From assembly GCF_010548305.1 (NCBI RefSeq), contig NZ_JAAGLV010000019.1:62001-126000 (forward strand): a stretch of DNA of 64,000 nucleotides, read 5' to 3'. Numbering within the stretch: position 1 is the first letter of the stretch; each line of letters begins with the position of its first letter. Below the pieces are notes generated by a model that saw nothing but the letters and a program-made list of their open reading frames with translations, had not been told where the DNA came from and did not search any database. This document shows, one piece after another, positions 27,090 through 31,608 of this stretch. This DNA comes from Streptomyces sp. SID13031 (GTDB lineage: Bacteria > Actinomycetota > Actinomycetes > Propionibacteriales > Kribbellaceae). The position numbers were made by a program, and so were the translations under genes.

Positions 27090-28634
27090 GTGAGGCTGTA
27101 CGACTATCTCGACAAGGGCGCATCGCTCGGCGCCGACGCACCCTGCCTGACGATGGACGGTACTTCGCTCAGCTACGGCGAGGTGCAGCAACTGTCGTGG
27201 CAGGTCGGCCGTGCCCTGCACCGGTCGGCCGTGCTGCCGGGCGACAAGGTGGCGATCCTGTCGGCGAACAACCCGATCTCGTTCGCCTGCGTCTTCGGGA
27301 TCGCCCGGGCCGGCGCGATCTGGTGCCCGGTGAATCCGCGCAACGAGGCCGCCGAGAATCGCGACCTGCTCGACGCCTTCGACTGCTCGGCACTGATCTT
27401 CCAGCGCGCGTTTCTCCCGCTGGTACAGAAGATTCTCCCCGAGCTGCCCAAGCTGACCACGGTCATCTGTCTGGAGGAGTCGCTCGAGGGTTCATTGCCT
27501 GAGGCAATCAGTCTGGCGGAGTGGCTGACCGGCGTACCGGCCGAGCCGTGGTCCTTGGAGCCGCTGGACGACCTCGCCCTGCTGGTCGGCACCGGTGGTA
27601 CGACCGGGCGGCCGAAGGGGGTGATGCTGACCGAGCGCAACCTGGAGACGATGTCGGCGATCACCTTGATGAGCTACCCGTTCTCCTCGCGTCCTGTCTA
27701 CCTGGCGCTGGCGCCGCTCACCCACGCGGCAGGCGTACTGTGCTTCCCAGTACTGACGCTCGGCGGCGAGATCGTGATCATGCCGGCGCCCGACCTGGAC
27801 GAGTTCCTGCGGCTGGTCGAGCGGCATCGGGTCACGCACACGTTCCTGCCGCCGACACTGATCTACATGATGCTGGGGCATCCTTCGCTGTCCACCACGG
27901 ATCTCGGCTCACTGCAGTGCTTCTGGTACGGCGCGGCGCCCATGTCGGCGGCCCGGCTGGAGGAGGCGCTGACGCGGATCGGGCCGGTGATGGCGCAACT
28001 CTTCGGGCAGAGCGAGGCACCGATGATGATCTCCACGATGGCGCCGGCCGACCACTTCCACGCTGACGGGTCGATGGCGGTCGAGCGATTCGCGTCGGCC
28101 GGGCGGCCGTCGCCGTTGACGCAGGTGGCGATCATGGCCGACGACGGGCGGCTGCTGGGGACCGGGGAACGCGGCGAGATCGTCGTCCGGGGGTCGCTCG
28201 TGATGGCCGGCTACTACCGCAACGCCGAGGCGACGGCCGCAGCTTCGCAGTACGGATGGCACCACACCGGTGACATCGGGTTCCTCGACGACGACAACTA
28301 CCTCTACATAGTGGATCGGGCGAAAGACATGATCATCACGGGCGGATTCAACGTGTACTCGGCAGAGGTCGAGCAGGCGCTGATGACGTACCCGGCGATC
28401 CGCGACTGCGCGGTCGTCGGTCTCCCCGACGAGAAGTGGGGCGAGCGGGTGACCGCCGTACTGCAGCTCCATCCCGGGCTCACGGTGACCGAGTCGGAGG
28501 TCCGCAACTACGTGAAGAGCAAGCTCGGCAGCGTCAAGGCGCCGAAGCAGGTGGAGGTCTGGCGCGACCTGCCGCGCTCGAAGGTCGGCAAGGTGCTGAA
28601 GAACGAGGTCAAGGCCCGCCTGTTAAATGAGTAG
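27090..28634 (+). CDS. Acyl-CoA synthetase (class I adenylate-forming, FadD-like)
   Basis: 514 residues from GTG 27090, with CTGGAG upstream. ANL superfamily motifs: LVGTGGTTGRPKGVMLT (P-loop), FGQSEAPMMIS, YHHTGDIG-type WHHTGDIGFLDDDNYLYIVDRAKDMIITGGFNVYSAEVE, and the C-terminal catalytic Lys in PRSKVGKVLKNEV. It activates a carboxylic acid to acyl-AMP and then acyl-CoA. It is the third gene of the SDR-reductase series after a 69-bp hairpin-containing gap. The chain type is not predictable; medium or aromatic acids are equally possible. Confidence 0.88.
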   Translation: MRLYDYLDKGASLGADAPCLTMDGTSLSYGEVQQLSWQVGRALHRSAVLPGDKVAILSANNPISFACVFGIARAGAIWCPVNPRNEAAENRDLLDAFDCSALIFQRAFLPLVQKILPELPKLTTVICLEESLEGSLPEAISLAEWLTGVPAEPWSLEPLDDLALLVGTGGTTGRPKGVMLTERNLETMSAITLMSYPFSSRPVYLALAPLTHAAGVLCFPVLTLGGEIVIMPAPDLDEFLRLVERHRVTHTFLPPTLIYMMLGHPSLSTTDLGSLQCFWYGAAPMSAARLEEALTRIGPVMAQLFGQSEAPMMISTMAPADHFHADGSMAVERFASAGRPSPLTQVAIMADDGRLLGTGERGEIVVRGSLVMAGYYRNAEATAAASQYGWHHTGDIGFLDDDNYLYIVDRAKDMIITGGFNVYSAEVEQALMTYPAIRDCAVVGLPDEKWGERVTAVLQLHPGLTVTESEVRNYVKSKLGSVKAPKQVEVWRDLPRSKVGKVLKNEVKARLLNE

Positions 28635-28689
28635 TGCTCTCACGGCGTCGGCGCTAGGGTCTGGGCTGACGCGAGAGGAGGTGAGTGCG

Positions 28690-28737
28690 ATGTCTGGTAC
28701 GCCCATCGTGCTGCCTTCTCGACGCACCCGCGGCTGA
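28690..28737 (+). CDS. Possible 15-residue small ORF before DinB gene
   Basis: ATG 28690 is preceded by GAGGAGG (28675-28681) at ideal spacing and opens MSGTPIVLPSRRTRG before a TGA. It ends 34 bp before the DinB start and is in a different frame. It might be a leader peptide or a chance ORF; no attenuator was identified downstream. Confidence 0.3.
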   Translation: MSGTPIVLPSRRTRG

Positions 28738-28771
28738 GACAGGTAGCTCCGTTTCACCCTCTGGAGCTGCA

Positions 28772-29291
28772 ATGACCGTGGTATCCCGTCCGCCGCTGAC
28801 CTCTGACGAGCGGACCCAACTGACCGGCTGGCTGGACCTGCAGAGGTCCTTCGTCCGGATGAAATGCGAAGGCCTGACCGAGGCCGACGCGCATCGCGTG
28901 ATGCTACCCACCTCGCCCTTGATGACGATGGCGGGATTGGTGGCCCACCTGCGCTGGAACGAGTACTCCTGGTTCCACCTCAACCTGGCCGGCGTCCCCG
29001 ACACCGGGCAGACACCGTGGACCGAGGACGGTCACGTCGACGCCGAGATGTTCGTCGACGACGTGCCGCTGACCCAACTCCTCGACGAGTACGACGCCGA
29101 GTGCGCCCGCTCGAACGAGATTGTCGCCGGCGTCTCCCTGGACGACGTCGAAAAAGCCGTCTTCCGCGACACCGGAGCCGCCTCCACCCGCTACATCCTC
29201 TGCCACATGATCGAAGAAACCGCCCGCCACGTCGGCCACCTCGACATCATCCGAGAAATTGATAGACGGAACCACCAGCTACGACAAGTAG
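28772..29291 (+). pseudogene. DinB/DUF664 family protein, frameshifted near its 3' end
   Basis: ATG 28772 has GGAGCTGCA upstream. Residues 1-161 read as an intact DUF664 DinB four-helix protein with metal-ligand-type His in MAGLVAHLRWNEYSW and HMIEETARHVGHLD. After CGA GAA (29252-29257) the open frame derails into basic sequence and runs to 29746, antisense to the NYN gene. Skipping one A (29258) restores LIDGTTSYDK and a TAG at 29289-29291, the usual family ending, 4 nt before a strong hairpin. So there is a 1-nt insertion, real or a sequencing error. DinB proteins bind metals or mycothiol-type thiols; the exact role is unknown. Confidence 0.75.
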
Positions 29292-29294
29292 CCC

Positions 29295-29329
29295 GTTGGC
29301 CCGGGCAACCTCAGGTTGCCCGGACCAAC
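29295..29329. terminator. Bidirectional terminator hairpin, DinB/NYN junction
   Basis: CCGGGCAACC (29301-29310) and GGTTGCCCGG (29314-29323) pair around a TCA loop, extended by GTTGG/CCAAC after one mismatch. It sits between the corrected DinB stop (29291) and the NYN stop (29341). Its position supports 29291 as the ancestral DinB end. Confidence 0.65.
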
Positions 29330-29340
29330 CCCGATCAGGC

Positions 29341-29985
29341 TCAGATCCACTTCTCCGGACGGCGCCAACTTGTCTTCCTGAGCGGGTCAAAAACCTCCTC
29401 CGGCAACTGCGAATGCCGCAGGTGCGTCTCGTTGATGTTGAAGTGTCCGACGTCAACGAAGCGCTTGTGTGGCTGCATGTTGCCTGCGGGCATTCCGAGG
29501 ATGACCGGCTGCCCGGGGCGCATCCGCTTGATCGCTGCCACCGCGGGCGCGAAGTCGGAATCCGCGCTGATGAGCAGTGTCCGGTCCGCCAGGCGAGCGG
29601 CGGTGTCCTCGACCATCGACACAGCCAGCGCTACATCGGTCTCCTTCTCTTCGAAGGTCCGTGGCCTCCGCGGGCACTCGCACTGCCAGTGCTCACCGCA
29701 GATCCTGCACGGCGACAGGCTCCCTCGCTTGAACCAGCCGATGTGAGTGTCGAGGAGGTCTCCCGAGTGCGCCTGCAGCGCGTCCAGGTAGTGAACCTGG
29801 TTCGCAGCGGCCGTCGGCTCGCCGCGGACGATGGTGGTGAAGTAGCGAACCAGAACCAGTTCGTCCTCGGGACGGAGCTGGCGTACCAGCTTCACCAGGT
29901 CGAGCCACAGGTACTTCCGGCCATACTTGCTCTTCATGCCGTAATACAGGTTGAAACCATCTATGTAAGCGGCGACGGTGCCCAC
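29341..29985 (-). CDS. NYN-domain (PIN-like) putative ribonuclease
   Basis: 214 residues from GTG 29985, with AGGAG 9 nt upstream; the longer frame to 30213 is spurious. AAYIDGFNLYYG gives the first acidic residue (Asp9), EEKETDVALAVSM gives Asp117, and LLISADSDFAPAV gives Asp142/Asp144. These are the PIN-like acidic triad of the LabA/DUF88 NYN family. An inserted knuckle CRICGEHWQCEC (Cys93, 96, 102, 104) could bind zinc. NYN proteins are generally metal-dependent RNases. The next DNA upstream is highly structured and AT-richer than average, which suggests co-inheritance. Confidence 0.82.
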   Translation of the reverse strand: MGTVAAYIDGFNLYYGMKSKYGRKYLWLDLVKLVRQLRPEDELVLVRYFTTIVRGEPTAAANQVHYLDALQAHSGDLLDTHIGWFKRGSLSPCRICGEHWQCECPRRPRTFEEKETDVALAVSMVEDTAARLADRTLLISADSDFAPAVAAIKRMRPGQPVILGMPAGNMQPHKRFVDVGHFNINETHLRHSQLPEEVFDPLRKTSWRRPEKWI

Positions 29986-30026
29986 GCCTTGGATCTCCTG
30001 TTCGGGACATGGCGTACGCGGCGTGG

Positions 30027-30091
30027 TATGGTGAAAACCGAATGCCGGTACGCCCGGCTGCAACGGTCCCCTCTGGGGGCCGTTCTTTTTT
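30027..30091 (+). ncRNA. Candidate small RNA ending at intrinsic terminator
   Basis: No plus-strand gene ends here, yet a textbook terminator lies at 30062-30091. TATGGT at 30027-30032 may be a -10 element. The putative RNA would be divergent from the NYN gene and about 50 nt long. Boundaries and even existence are inferred. Confidence 0.3.
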
Positions 30092-30100
30092 GCGTACCGG
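30045..30100 (+). terminator. Nested hairpins with intrinsic terminator
   Basis: AACGGTCCCC (30062-30071) pairs with GGGGGCCGTT (30075-30084) around TCT, then CTTTTTT follows: a strong rho-independent terminator on the plus strand, unusual for this GC-rich DNA. An outer pair CCGGTACGC (30045-30053)/GCGTACCGG (30092-30100) encloses it and could compete with release. Confidence 0.7.
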
Positions 30101-30146
30101 TTTGGGCGGCTTTGCCGCCTCATCTCCCGACAGCTCGACAAAGGGA

Positions 30147-30170
30147 GAAGCCCCACCGAAGTGGGGCCTC
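30147..30170 (-). terminator. UUCG-tetraloop hairpin after serine hydrolase gene
   Basis: On the minus strand, GAGGCCCCAC and GTGGGGCTTC form a 10-bp stem (one G-U) with a TTCG loop, followed by TCCCTTT. It lies 77 bp past the stop of the serine hydrolase gene. A further GGCGGC/GCCGCC stem is at 30105-30119. Confidence 0.55.
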
Positions 30171-30246
30171 GCGCCTGATCGCTGAGAAGCTCGCGACCGA
30201 CGATCGCTGCCAACCGTGGTCAGTTGGCTACCGCTGGGTTCAAAAG

Positions 30247-31608
30247 TCAGAGCCACTCGCCGAAGGCGAGGGGGGCTCGGGTGCAGAGGTAGGTGGACCA
30301 GTGGAGGGTGGTGGGGGTGCCGTCGGAGGCTCGGGTGATGCGGAGGAGTTCGCCTGCTTCGCGGCCTGAGGTGGTGCGGTAGAGGTCGGTGGAGATTTTT
30401 TCGAAGATGGCTGGGGGTTTCCAGTCGGGGGCGCCTTGGGCTACGGCTTGCAGGGTGCCTTCGCGGACTGAGAAGACGAAGGGGCTGCCCTCGGAGAACC
30501 AGGTGCCGAGGACGCCGGTGAGGTCGTCGGGGACGGTGGTGCCGGGGATCCAGACCGACGCCTTCGCCGGCTCGTCGGTGAGGACCTTGAGCAACAGGTC
30601 GGTGGCGAAGCCGGCCGGGTCGGGGGCCGAGGTGGCGTTCATCAGCGCGATGCCGGCCGTGCCCGACGGGCGGTGCACGAAGGTTCCGGTGATGTGGCCG
30701 GGCATGCCACCCGTGTGGCCGACCGTGACGCGATCACCGAGCCGCAGCAGCATGAAGCCGAGACCGAAACCGAGCACCCAGCGCTCGTCCGCCATCACCT
30801 GCGGCTGGCACATCTCCTCGATGGTGTCCGCGGCGAGCACCTCGTCCACCGGGTTCGCGATGAACATCGCCCACTTGGCCAGGTCCCCCGCAGTACTGGC
30901 GAGCCCACCGCACGCGTTCATCGCGCCGATGTCGAGCACCGGCTCCTTCACCGGCACATCCGTGTACGGCGGTACGTAGTACCCCTGAGCCGCCGGCCCG
31001 CCGTCGAAACCGACCGTCGTCCGGCCCATCTCCAGCGGTCGCAGGATGCGCGCCTGGATCGACTCGTACCAACTGCGCCCGTCAAGACGCTCGATGACCT
31101 CGCCGAGCAGCGAGTAGACCAGGTTCGAGTAGTGGAACCGGTGATGCGGTTTGCCGATCCGCTCGGCGTCGTTCCAGCCCGAGAGCAGCTCTTCGCGGTT
31201 CGGGAACGCCATCGTGTCCCAGACGTCGCCGACCGGCTCGCGCTGCATACCGCTGACGTGGCTGAGCATCTGCCGCACGGTGACGCCACCGTGCTTGGTC
31301 TCGGGCAGCAGAGTGTCGAGCTGGTCGTCGAGGCTGAGCTTGCCCTCGTCGCGCAGCGCCAGGATCGCCACCGCGGTGAACGTCTTGCTGTGCGAGGCGA
31401 TCAGGTACTGGGTATCGGCGGTCGGCACGCTGCCTGGCTGATCCAGGTCGGTCGTGCCGGCCCCTTCGGACCAGGCCAGCGCACCGTCGCGGGCGACTGC
31501 CCCCACGAGTCCGGGGACGCGCCCCTTGGCCTGGCGTTCGGCGACGATCCGGCTGAGCGCGGACTGGGTCTGAGCGGAGATCTCGGTCACCGATCGACAG
31601 TAAGGCAT
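30247..31608 (-). CDS. Serine hydrolase, class C beta-lactamase family
   Basis: 453 residues if started at ATG 31608. It carries SHSK (Ser72-Lys75), YSN (FHYSNLVYS) and HTGG (VTVGHTGGMPGH), the three class C/penicillin-binding-like motifs. No signal peptide is visible. Neither start has a clear ribosome-binding site; GTG 31590 preceded by TACTGT could be a leaderless start. It resembles the serine hydrolase at 17982-19373 but is not operon-linked. It is divergent from the large BTAD regulator, whose regulation it may share. Substrate unknown (esterase, amidase or D-peptidase). Confidence 0.85.
   Translation of the reverse strand: MPYCRSVTEISAQTQSALSRIVAERQAKGRVPGLVGAVARDGALAWSEGAGTTDLDQPGSVPTADTQYLIASHSKTFTAVAILALRDEGKLSLDDQLDTLLPETKHGGVTVRQMLSHVSGMQREPVGDVWDTMAFPNREELLSGWNDAERIGKPHHRFHYSNLVYSLLGEVIERLDGRSWYESIQARILRPLEMGRTTVGFDGGPAAQGYYVPPYTDVPVKEPVLDIGAMNACGGLASTAGDLAKWAMFIANPVDEVLAADTIEEMCQPQVMADERWVLGFGLGFMLLRLGDRVTVGHTGGMPGHITGTFVHRPSGTAGIALMNATSAPDPAGFATDLLLKVLTDEPAKASVWIPGTTVPDDLTGVLGTWFSEGSPFVFSVREGTLQAVAQGAPDWKPPAIFEKISTDLYRTTSGREAGELLRITRASDGTPTTLHWSTYLCTRAPLAFGEWL

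Follow-up and report, generated by a model that had tools for sequence, protein, structure and literature searches.

The window, the 64,000-nucleotide stretch of DNA from Streptomyces sp. SID13031 analysed here, encodes a NYN-domain nuclease whose gene stands back to back with a small structured RNA. It is probable, judging from comparison of related sequences, that this locus is a ribonuclease restrained by its own RNA, namely a NYN endoribonuclease and a cognate RNA of ~55 nt. A preliminary description of the window had suggested that the RNase could have an RNA partner of its own, and the proposal finds support in the presence of the RNA beside the nuclease genes of the window's clade, in Micromonosporaceae and at most of the high-scoring loci of other groups. 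The features of the locus are the following:

29341..29985, minus strand: NYN-domain (PIN-like) nuclease gene of HEC-09 type, assigned by its open reading frame, Pfam NYN, PADLOC HEC-09, invariant acidic residues and NYN fold
30024..30032, plus strand: putative extended -10 element TGG-TATGGT of the small RNA (-10 at 30027-30032), with a conserved TANNNT
30036..30091, plus strand: small RNA, matching covariance model R1 with 58.7 bits and E 1.3e-19, a score that is not independent, the window being one of the 14 rows used to build R1
30044..30058, plus strand: hairpin 1, GCCGG-TACGC-CCGGC, a helix that compensatory changes maintain in the relatives
30062..30091, plus strand: hairpin 2 (30062-30084) and U-tract, the intrinsic terminator ending the RNA, from the terminator scan and the alignment
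29293..30245, no strand assigned: inserted segment with NYN gene and RNA between MST/DinB-like and beta-lactamase-like genes, delimited by empty sites, the neighbours being named by Pfam

The nuclease and its neighbouring RNA

The NYN reading frame is complete on the minus strand. It extends from a GTG start codon (29983-29985), with an AGGAG ribosome site read from the sequence at 29995-29999, to a stop codon at 29341-29343. Its product scores 39.1 bits against Pfam NYN (PF01936), whose cut-off is 24.2 bits, in agreement with the PIN-like NYN RNase gene reported earlier, and ToxN-type families were absent from the same Pfam scan up to E 1. The protein matches the PADLOC HEC-09 model PDLC04163 with E 3.1e-49 over positions 3-213, a model matched by all 28 members of protein alignment A3, window included. 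Thirteen positions are invariant in these 28 sequences, including D9, E113, D117, D142 and D144; the PIN-like acidic site is composed of D9, D117, D142 and D144 (28/28).

The cysteine knuckle described previously as a CxxC...CxC insertion has the form C-x2-C-x5-C-x-C in the window. This full form occurs in 11 of the 28 A3 rows (window and L022-L031), and the remaining rows have CxxC, CxxxC or no cysteine motif. The predicted structure of the protein has a mean pLDDT of 89.2, the cysteine insertion being its least certain part (block pLDDT 55-74). Among the matches listed in the fold search, the best are NYN proteins: VPA0982 (2qip; Z 16.6 over 155 residues, 17% identity) and the MARF1 NYN domain (Z 15.1 over 145 residues, 14% identity, and also 14.6). 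They are followed by 5'-nucleases at Z 8.1-8.6, rows with Z below 8 being treated as background. The window protein is alike in fold to MARF1 and VPA0982 and differs from them by its extra cysteine insertion. Its NYN fold and invariant acidic residues predict that it is an endoribonuclease.

The small RNA is ~55 nt long, begins ~50 nt from the NYN start codon and runs divergently from the gene through two hairpins to its terminator. A T-tailed intrinsic terminator in this orientation had been recognised before, and it corresponds to the plus-strand hairpin at 30062-30091; no gene is visible ahead of it on the plus strand, as had also been stated. Hairpin 1 and the -10 element, which went unmentioned then, are conserved parts of the unit. 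Transcription would start near 30038-30041, and hairpin 1 is likely the element recognised by the protein. The U-G pair 30067/30079 needs the plus strand as RNA, since the minus-strand match to R1 has a mismatch there. For the 65-nt segment 30036-30100 the folding energy is -34.5 kcal/mol (z = -4.65; 0/200 shuffles as good), a value that takes in the outer stem considered below; the RNA without this stem folds at -29.2 kcal/mol, a figure calculated without shuffles. Comparison of Rfam 15 with the window gave 0 matches.

Two details of the preliminary description need correction. An outer CCGGTACGC/GCGTACCGG stem was thought to wrap the terminator. The 3' arm (30092-30100) of this stem comes after the U-tract, and its 5' arm overlaps hairpin 1. 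The stem was rejected as a part of the element, the exact 9-nt arm being found in only 2 of 14 relatives (window and L022) and the others having 4-7 nt. The 9-nt arm is absent from both RNA relics of genome G007, and the core of the stem, CGTACCGG, is found at 2805 places in this genome, counting both strands. The second detail is a less GC-rich local composition: the dip exists but is mild, with G+C values of 0.62-0.65 in 28250-30250, compared with 0.64-0.70 on its left and 0.67-0.74 on its right.

A peptide coded in the RNA was considered and rejected, the reading frames of the window RNA running through the terminator. No ATG or GTG is found ahead of the terminator loop in nine Micromonosporaceae RNAs; an ATG is present in all five Kribbella RNAs.

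Conservation, acquisition and loss of the pair

Relatives of the NYN protein were located by protein alone and their upstream DNA was read afterwards. The order -10 element, hairpin and terminator, directed away from the NYN gene, is found in Kribbella, Micromonospora, Dactylosporangium, Hamadaea and Actinoplanes, the last of which we take to be a member of the Micromonosporaceae. RNA alignment A2 has 14 rows (5 Kribbella, 9 Micromonosporaceae), picked for a divergent RNA already seen. Its hairpin 1 appears as GCCG/CGGC, GGCG/CGCC or GCGG/CCGC. The loop reads AGAGATA in 9/9 Micromonosporaceae rows, the five Kribbella rows being different. Across the 13 distinct rows 98.3% of cells are paired. 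Four pairs are changed on both sides, which was equalled in 5/500 shuffles, and the covariation score was equalled in 0/500; further pair types are a weak measure, equalled by chance in 35/500 shuffles. Eleven cells are G-U or U-G pairs, possible only with this strand as RNA. The motif TANNNT, picked after viewing the sequences, stands 6-22 nt ahead of hairpin 1 in 14/14 relatives (10.9% in mononucleotide shuffles).

The protein tree places the divergent-RNA rows (Kribbella, Micromonosporaceae and two actinobacterial plasmids) in a clade of 16 (94/57), 15 of which group at 99/91, with two further divergent-RNA cases, L086 and L056, outside. RNA labels on the tree were given by eye, contrary to the script, for L014, L045, L093, L040, L046, L047 and L048, and near-duplicates of the same gene represent G008, G014 and G015.

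A covariance search with R1 in 38 genomes of the window's genus, taken to be Kribbella, gave eight matches at E below 1e-6: five from the training set, one by the second NYN gene of G014 (L021) and two in G007. The same genomes have 13 NYN matches, of which 7 belong to the window's tree clade. All 7 genes have the RNA, that of G024 being counted on a weak R1 match (E 0.0023) and by eye. The occurrence of the structure beside NYN orthologues had been set beforehand as a test of the pair, and the RNA is carried by these seven genes and by the Micromonosporaceae relatives. The other six NYN genes of the genus (L015-L020, in six genomes) form a separate subfamily without such an RNA, so that a NYN nuclease can persist without it; this subfamily is perhaps domesticated or has another partner. 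Distant NYN subfamilies also often have no adjacent RNA.

The R1 search was extended, with stricter filters, to 394 genomes of the class. Two matches reached 1e-6: that of the window itself and another in G460, where the RNA runs divergently from an NYN gene with a profile score of 214. Weaker matches in the genus (E above 1e-6) were rejected as true RNAs and taken as chance; near the three that were fetched out of many (L109-L111), no NYN was found at profile E up to 10. Applied to 33 loci with other NYN genes, R1 gave E below 0.01 in L021, L053, L014 and L039 and little else, which indicates that RNAs from distant clades share an architecture but no sequence similarity.

The gene order in the genus is AMP-binding, MST/DinB-like and beta-lactamase-like (Pfam names). 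The MST/DinB-like gene is present in 38/38 genomes and its locus was obtained for 30, with a beta-lactamase match within about 1.5 kb in 11 of them. Among these 11 loci, NYN gene and RNA lie between both genes in the window and in G015, while G007 has the RNA only. The site is empty in G028, where the stop codons of the two flanking genes touch, and in G025, G010, G008 and G031, where 49-192 nt separate the ends of the flanking matches and no NYN was matched. No R1 match is listed at these five sites; G008 and G031 bear the NYN-RNA unit elsewhere in the genome. G009, G003 and G036 are also without NYN and differ in spacing (about 1.1-1.2 kb) or order. The five empty sites speak for the acquisition of RNase and RNA as a unit, as initially suggested. 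The MST/DinB-like gene of the window (28772-29291) differs from its relatives in length near the 3' end (L108), its frame thus continuing past the usual stop.

Genome G007 has no NYN match at E 0.001, yet it has two RNAs, both at sites that hold an NYN gene in relatives. Relative to the window, 29293-29977 (the NYN body) is swapped for 68 nt and 29978-30089 (putative promoter and RNA) aligns; beyond the far side of this RNA copy lies 0.4 kb of unrelated sequence. Relative to L024, 2941-3657 is swapped for 195 nt and the RNA aligns. Judged from these alignments, G007 has lost the nuclease twice and kept the RNA. In the Actinoplanes loci L032 and L033 (3001-3647) the NYN frame is split (in L032 by the ORF list) beside an intact RNA, a case either of a nuclease decaying first or of sequencing error.

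Persistence of the RNA without NYN in G007 would also fit a processing nuclease that matures a small RNA acting elsewhere, for example on mRNAs. The available portion of PMC11346440 describes a precedent, the CRISPR-associated NYN of Bacteroides fragilis, a Mn-dependent single-strand RNase with a proposed role in crRNA trimming. Such a role is quite unlikely here, for the window RNA, at only ~55 nt and with a terminator of its own at the end, offers little that could be processed. The RNA arrays of some relatives could need processing, as in ToxI (described in the part of PMC5086642 available), and there processing is compatible with restraint of the nuclease by its RNA.

Nucleases of other phyla, plasmids and phages

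HEC-09 was detected in 24/396 genomes drawn from the phylum (E 1e-15), and NYN relatives are found in viral contigs and on 340 plasmid records, 209 of them from Klebsiella and 45 from Escherichia. In Bacteroidota, Ignavibacteriota, relatives of Desulfovibrio, Bdellovibrionota and others, an equivalent RNA unit lies on the NYN strand just ahead of the start, often with the order CCCC, hairpin and terminator. The orientation of the RNA varies by clade and its linkage to NYN stays.

A strong terminator is located no more than 250 nt upstream of 40 of the 44 NYN genes with a profile score of at least 140 (21 on the same strand and 19 divergent, as classified by script), for a background of 0.068 per 250 nt; same-strand terminators may belong partly to preceding genes, and some of the counted loci had also served to build the NYN profile. 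Below a score of 140 the figure is 15/41. The count skipped 12 duplicate loci (L010, L011, L013, L057, L096-L101, L122, L125) and set aside 8 partial genes, and the near-identical plasmid rows L082/L083/L116 and L088/L114/L115 stayed in. Of 80 viral loci, 56 remained after filtering for complete genes, length of the upstream region and similarity of the upstream regions. A strong terminator lies no more than 250 nt away, on one strand or the other, in 39/45 of these at scores of at least 140 (background 0.104), in 4/8 at scores of 100-140 and in 2/3 below 100, with the strongest on the divergent strand in 4. At the script threshold no terminator was found in 4/44 and, for the viral set, 6/45 high-scoring loci.

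Alignment A4 comprises ten rows (8 distinct) from Bacteroidota, Ignavibacteriota and phages, selected for TGAGAAA, the loop being therefore constant by selection; L037, with a variant loop, was excluded by this choice, and L048 and L212 were omitted because they were dissimilar. In A4, 96.4% of cells are paired. All seven pairs of hairpin 1 are changed on both sides (equalled in 1/500 shuffles) and the covariation score was equalled in 0/500; further pair types are again a weak measure, chance equalling them in 245/500. In 53 same-strand loci, a promoter-like site with at least 9/12 matches precedes the terminator in 24 (15.5% in shuffles) and one with at least 10/12 matches in 14 (2.8%). The -10 ends 30-43 nt ahead of the stem in 17 of the 24.

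The linkage of RNA and terminator to NYN genes is beyond chance. Cargo genes are often flanked by terminators, and an initial scan of 4 kb gave 2 terminator-like sites for 1.4 expected, as if these were the ordinary terminators of neighbouring or inserted cargo genes. Such a coincidence is extremely improbable given a terminator frequency near NYN far over background, the covariation in A2 and A4 and the mostly set distance of the promoter-like sites. The position of the RNA outside the window's clade, mostly on the NYN strand just ahead of the gene, would be that of a cis-acting leader or attenuator of NYN expression. This role is very unlikely: the RNA of the window and its clade points away from the gene and has a likely -10 element to itself, placing it outside the NYN message, and two copies survive without NYN in G007.

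Some relatives have the RNA in several copies. Small E. coli/Klebsiella plasmids carry a tandem array of ~33-nt units, four in L088 and L114 and five in L115. The NYN type with this array is found in 10/5426 E. coli genomes, always on plasmids, two of the matches being 33 nt (one unit) shorter than the query. Two RNA copies lie 53-54 nt apart in L095 and L112, and likewise, by eye, in L113; L190 also has two, and three copies spaced by 50-52 nt are present in phage locus L199, where two hairpins can be made out by eye in each. Tandem Repeats Finder reported no array in L199, though its units are visible by eye, and the repeat search found none in L193, where units are visible by eye as well, or in L186. 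The window RNA is a single unit. RNAs of a gammaproteobacterial plasmid subfamily (L085, L087, L094, L095, L112, L117) share a ATTAAGTT motif, repeated in L095 and L112.

Rfam searches of 19 plasmid and viral loci returned RNAI and tRNA only. In ten loci searched up to E 1, the only match at the RNA site was a sub-threshold one to anti-hemB in L036 (1152-1258), just ahead of NYN, with 25.9 bits, below the curated 49.5. The anti-hemB RNA (Rfam RF02837, Burkholderia) has a similar order CCCC-hairpin-hairpin-terminator and might be an NYN partner.

Annotations of several relatives deserve mention. The NYN gene of Mycobacterium abscessus prophage L092 (1986-2606) lies between integrase and immunity repressor, and the script found no terminator there. 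Plasmid NYN proteins H48, H65, H71 and H90 carry the annotation 6-hydroxy-3-succinoylpyridine monooxygenase/hydroxylase (as HspA in three of them), which seems to be a misleading name passed on by annotation transfer. NYN-like matches H88 and H89 coincide with features labelled Xre/MbcA/ParS antitoxin, a hint that some NYN toxins may have protein partners.

Relation to known systems and proposed mode of action

Type III toxin-antitoxin systems have a single promoter followed by tandem RNA repeats, a terminator and a toxin on one strand, the RNA neutralising the toxin by binding it directly, according to the available part of PMC5086642. The window locus shares with ToxIN, CptIN and TenpIN a small structured RNA, an intrinsic terminator and a nuclease gene, and the E. 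coli/Klebsiella plasmid relatives also have repeats, terminator and nuclease in order on one strand. It differs in that its nuclease is NYN by sequence and not of the ToxN family, in that its RNA is one unit, tandem repeats being found in L088, L114, L115, L095, L112, L190 and L199, and in that its RNA is divergent, whereas many relatives have the same-strand order. By membership the locus is thus not ToxIN, CptIN or TenpIN, and it may work like one of them.

The window protein matches PADLOC HEC-09 (Hma-embedded candidate 9), a protein profile without an RNA part. Several Hma-embedded candidates are antiviral in assays, as stated in the portions available of PMC10855318 and PMC12988326. In the literature searched, HEC-09 is named in a single paper: it was correlated with phage susceptibility in Pseudomonas in the text available of PMC12447246, which counts against a defence system based on restraint of the nuclease. 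The B. fragilis CRISPR NYN is likewise an RNase of the NYN type that is linked with small RNAs in defence (PMC11346440, same portion); the window differs by its dedicated two-hairpin RNA beside the gene. Search listings of the published literature, preprints being outside the search and novelty limited accordingly, showed no NYN-RNA toxin-antitoxin pair, no paper joining NYN with type III terms and none combining NYN, noncoding RNA and phage defense; eight papers mention NYN, small RNA and toxin-antitoxin together.

Kept linkage with varying orientation, a likely own promoter, tandem repeats and the survival of the RNA in G007 make a trans-acting restraining partner more likely than a leader, a substrate for processing or a coincidence. 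The NYN (PIN-like) endoribonuclease would be metal-dependent, and the small RNA, transcribed from its own promoter, would bind it via hairpin 1 and hold it inactive. When the RNA supply stops or the RNA is lost, as in phage takeover of transcription or loss of the element, the nuclease would be freed and might cut cellular RNA, leading to growth arrest, abortive infection or addiction.

The RNA might instead be a cofactor or sensor, with which the NYN protein would assemble into an active ribonucleoprotein that uses the RNA to recognise phage or other RNA. Any dedicated RNA partner would account for the conserved linkage and for loops conserved within single lineages, and PADLOC lists the protein as a defence candidate. 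We regard this role as unlikely, since neither A2 nor A4 has a variable guide-like stretch, and an RNA surviving loss of the nuclease suits an antitoxin better.

A restrained nuclease may be the rule in the family. On balance, HEC-09 type NYN proteins across Actinomycetota, Bacteroidota, Thermodesulfobacteriota, Pseudomonadota plasmids and phages would be half of an RNA-protein system, in which every clade would possess a two-hairpin RNA antitoxin of its own, as one copy or in tandem. This would be type III-like control on a second, unrelated nuclease fold, and a defence candidate of wide distribution would have been catalogued without its essential RNA. If so, a common uncharacterised nuclease family is controlled by unannotated RNAs, and a laboratory assaying the protein without the RNA could misread it. 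Control of the protein-RNA toxin-antitoxin kind would then have evolved on more than one nuclease fold, and the NYN-RNA unit would offer a compact, directly testable module.
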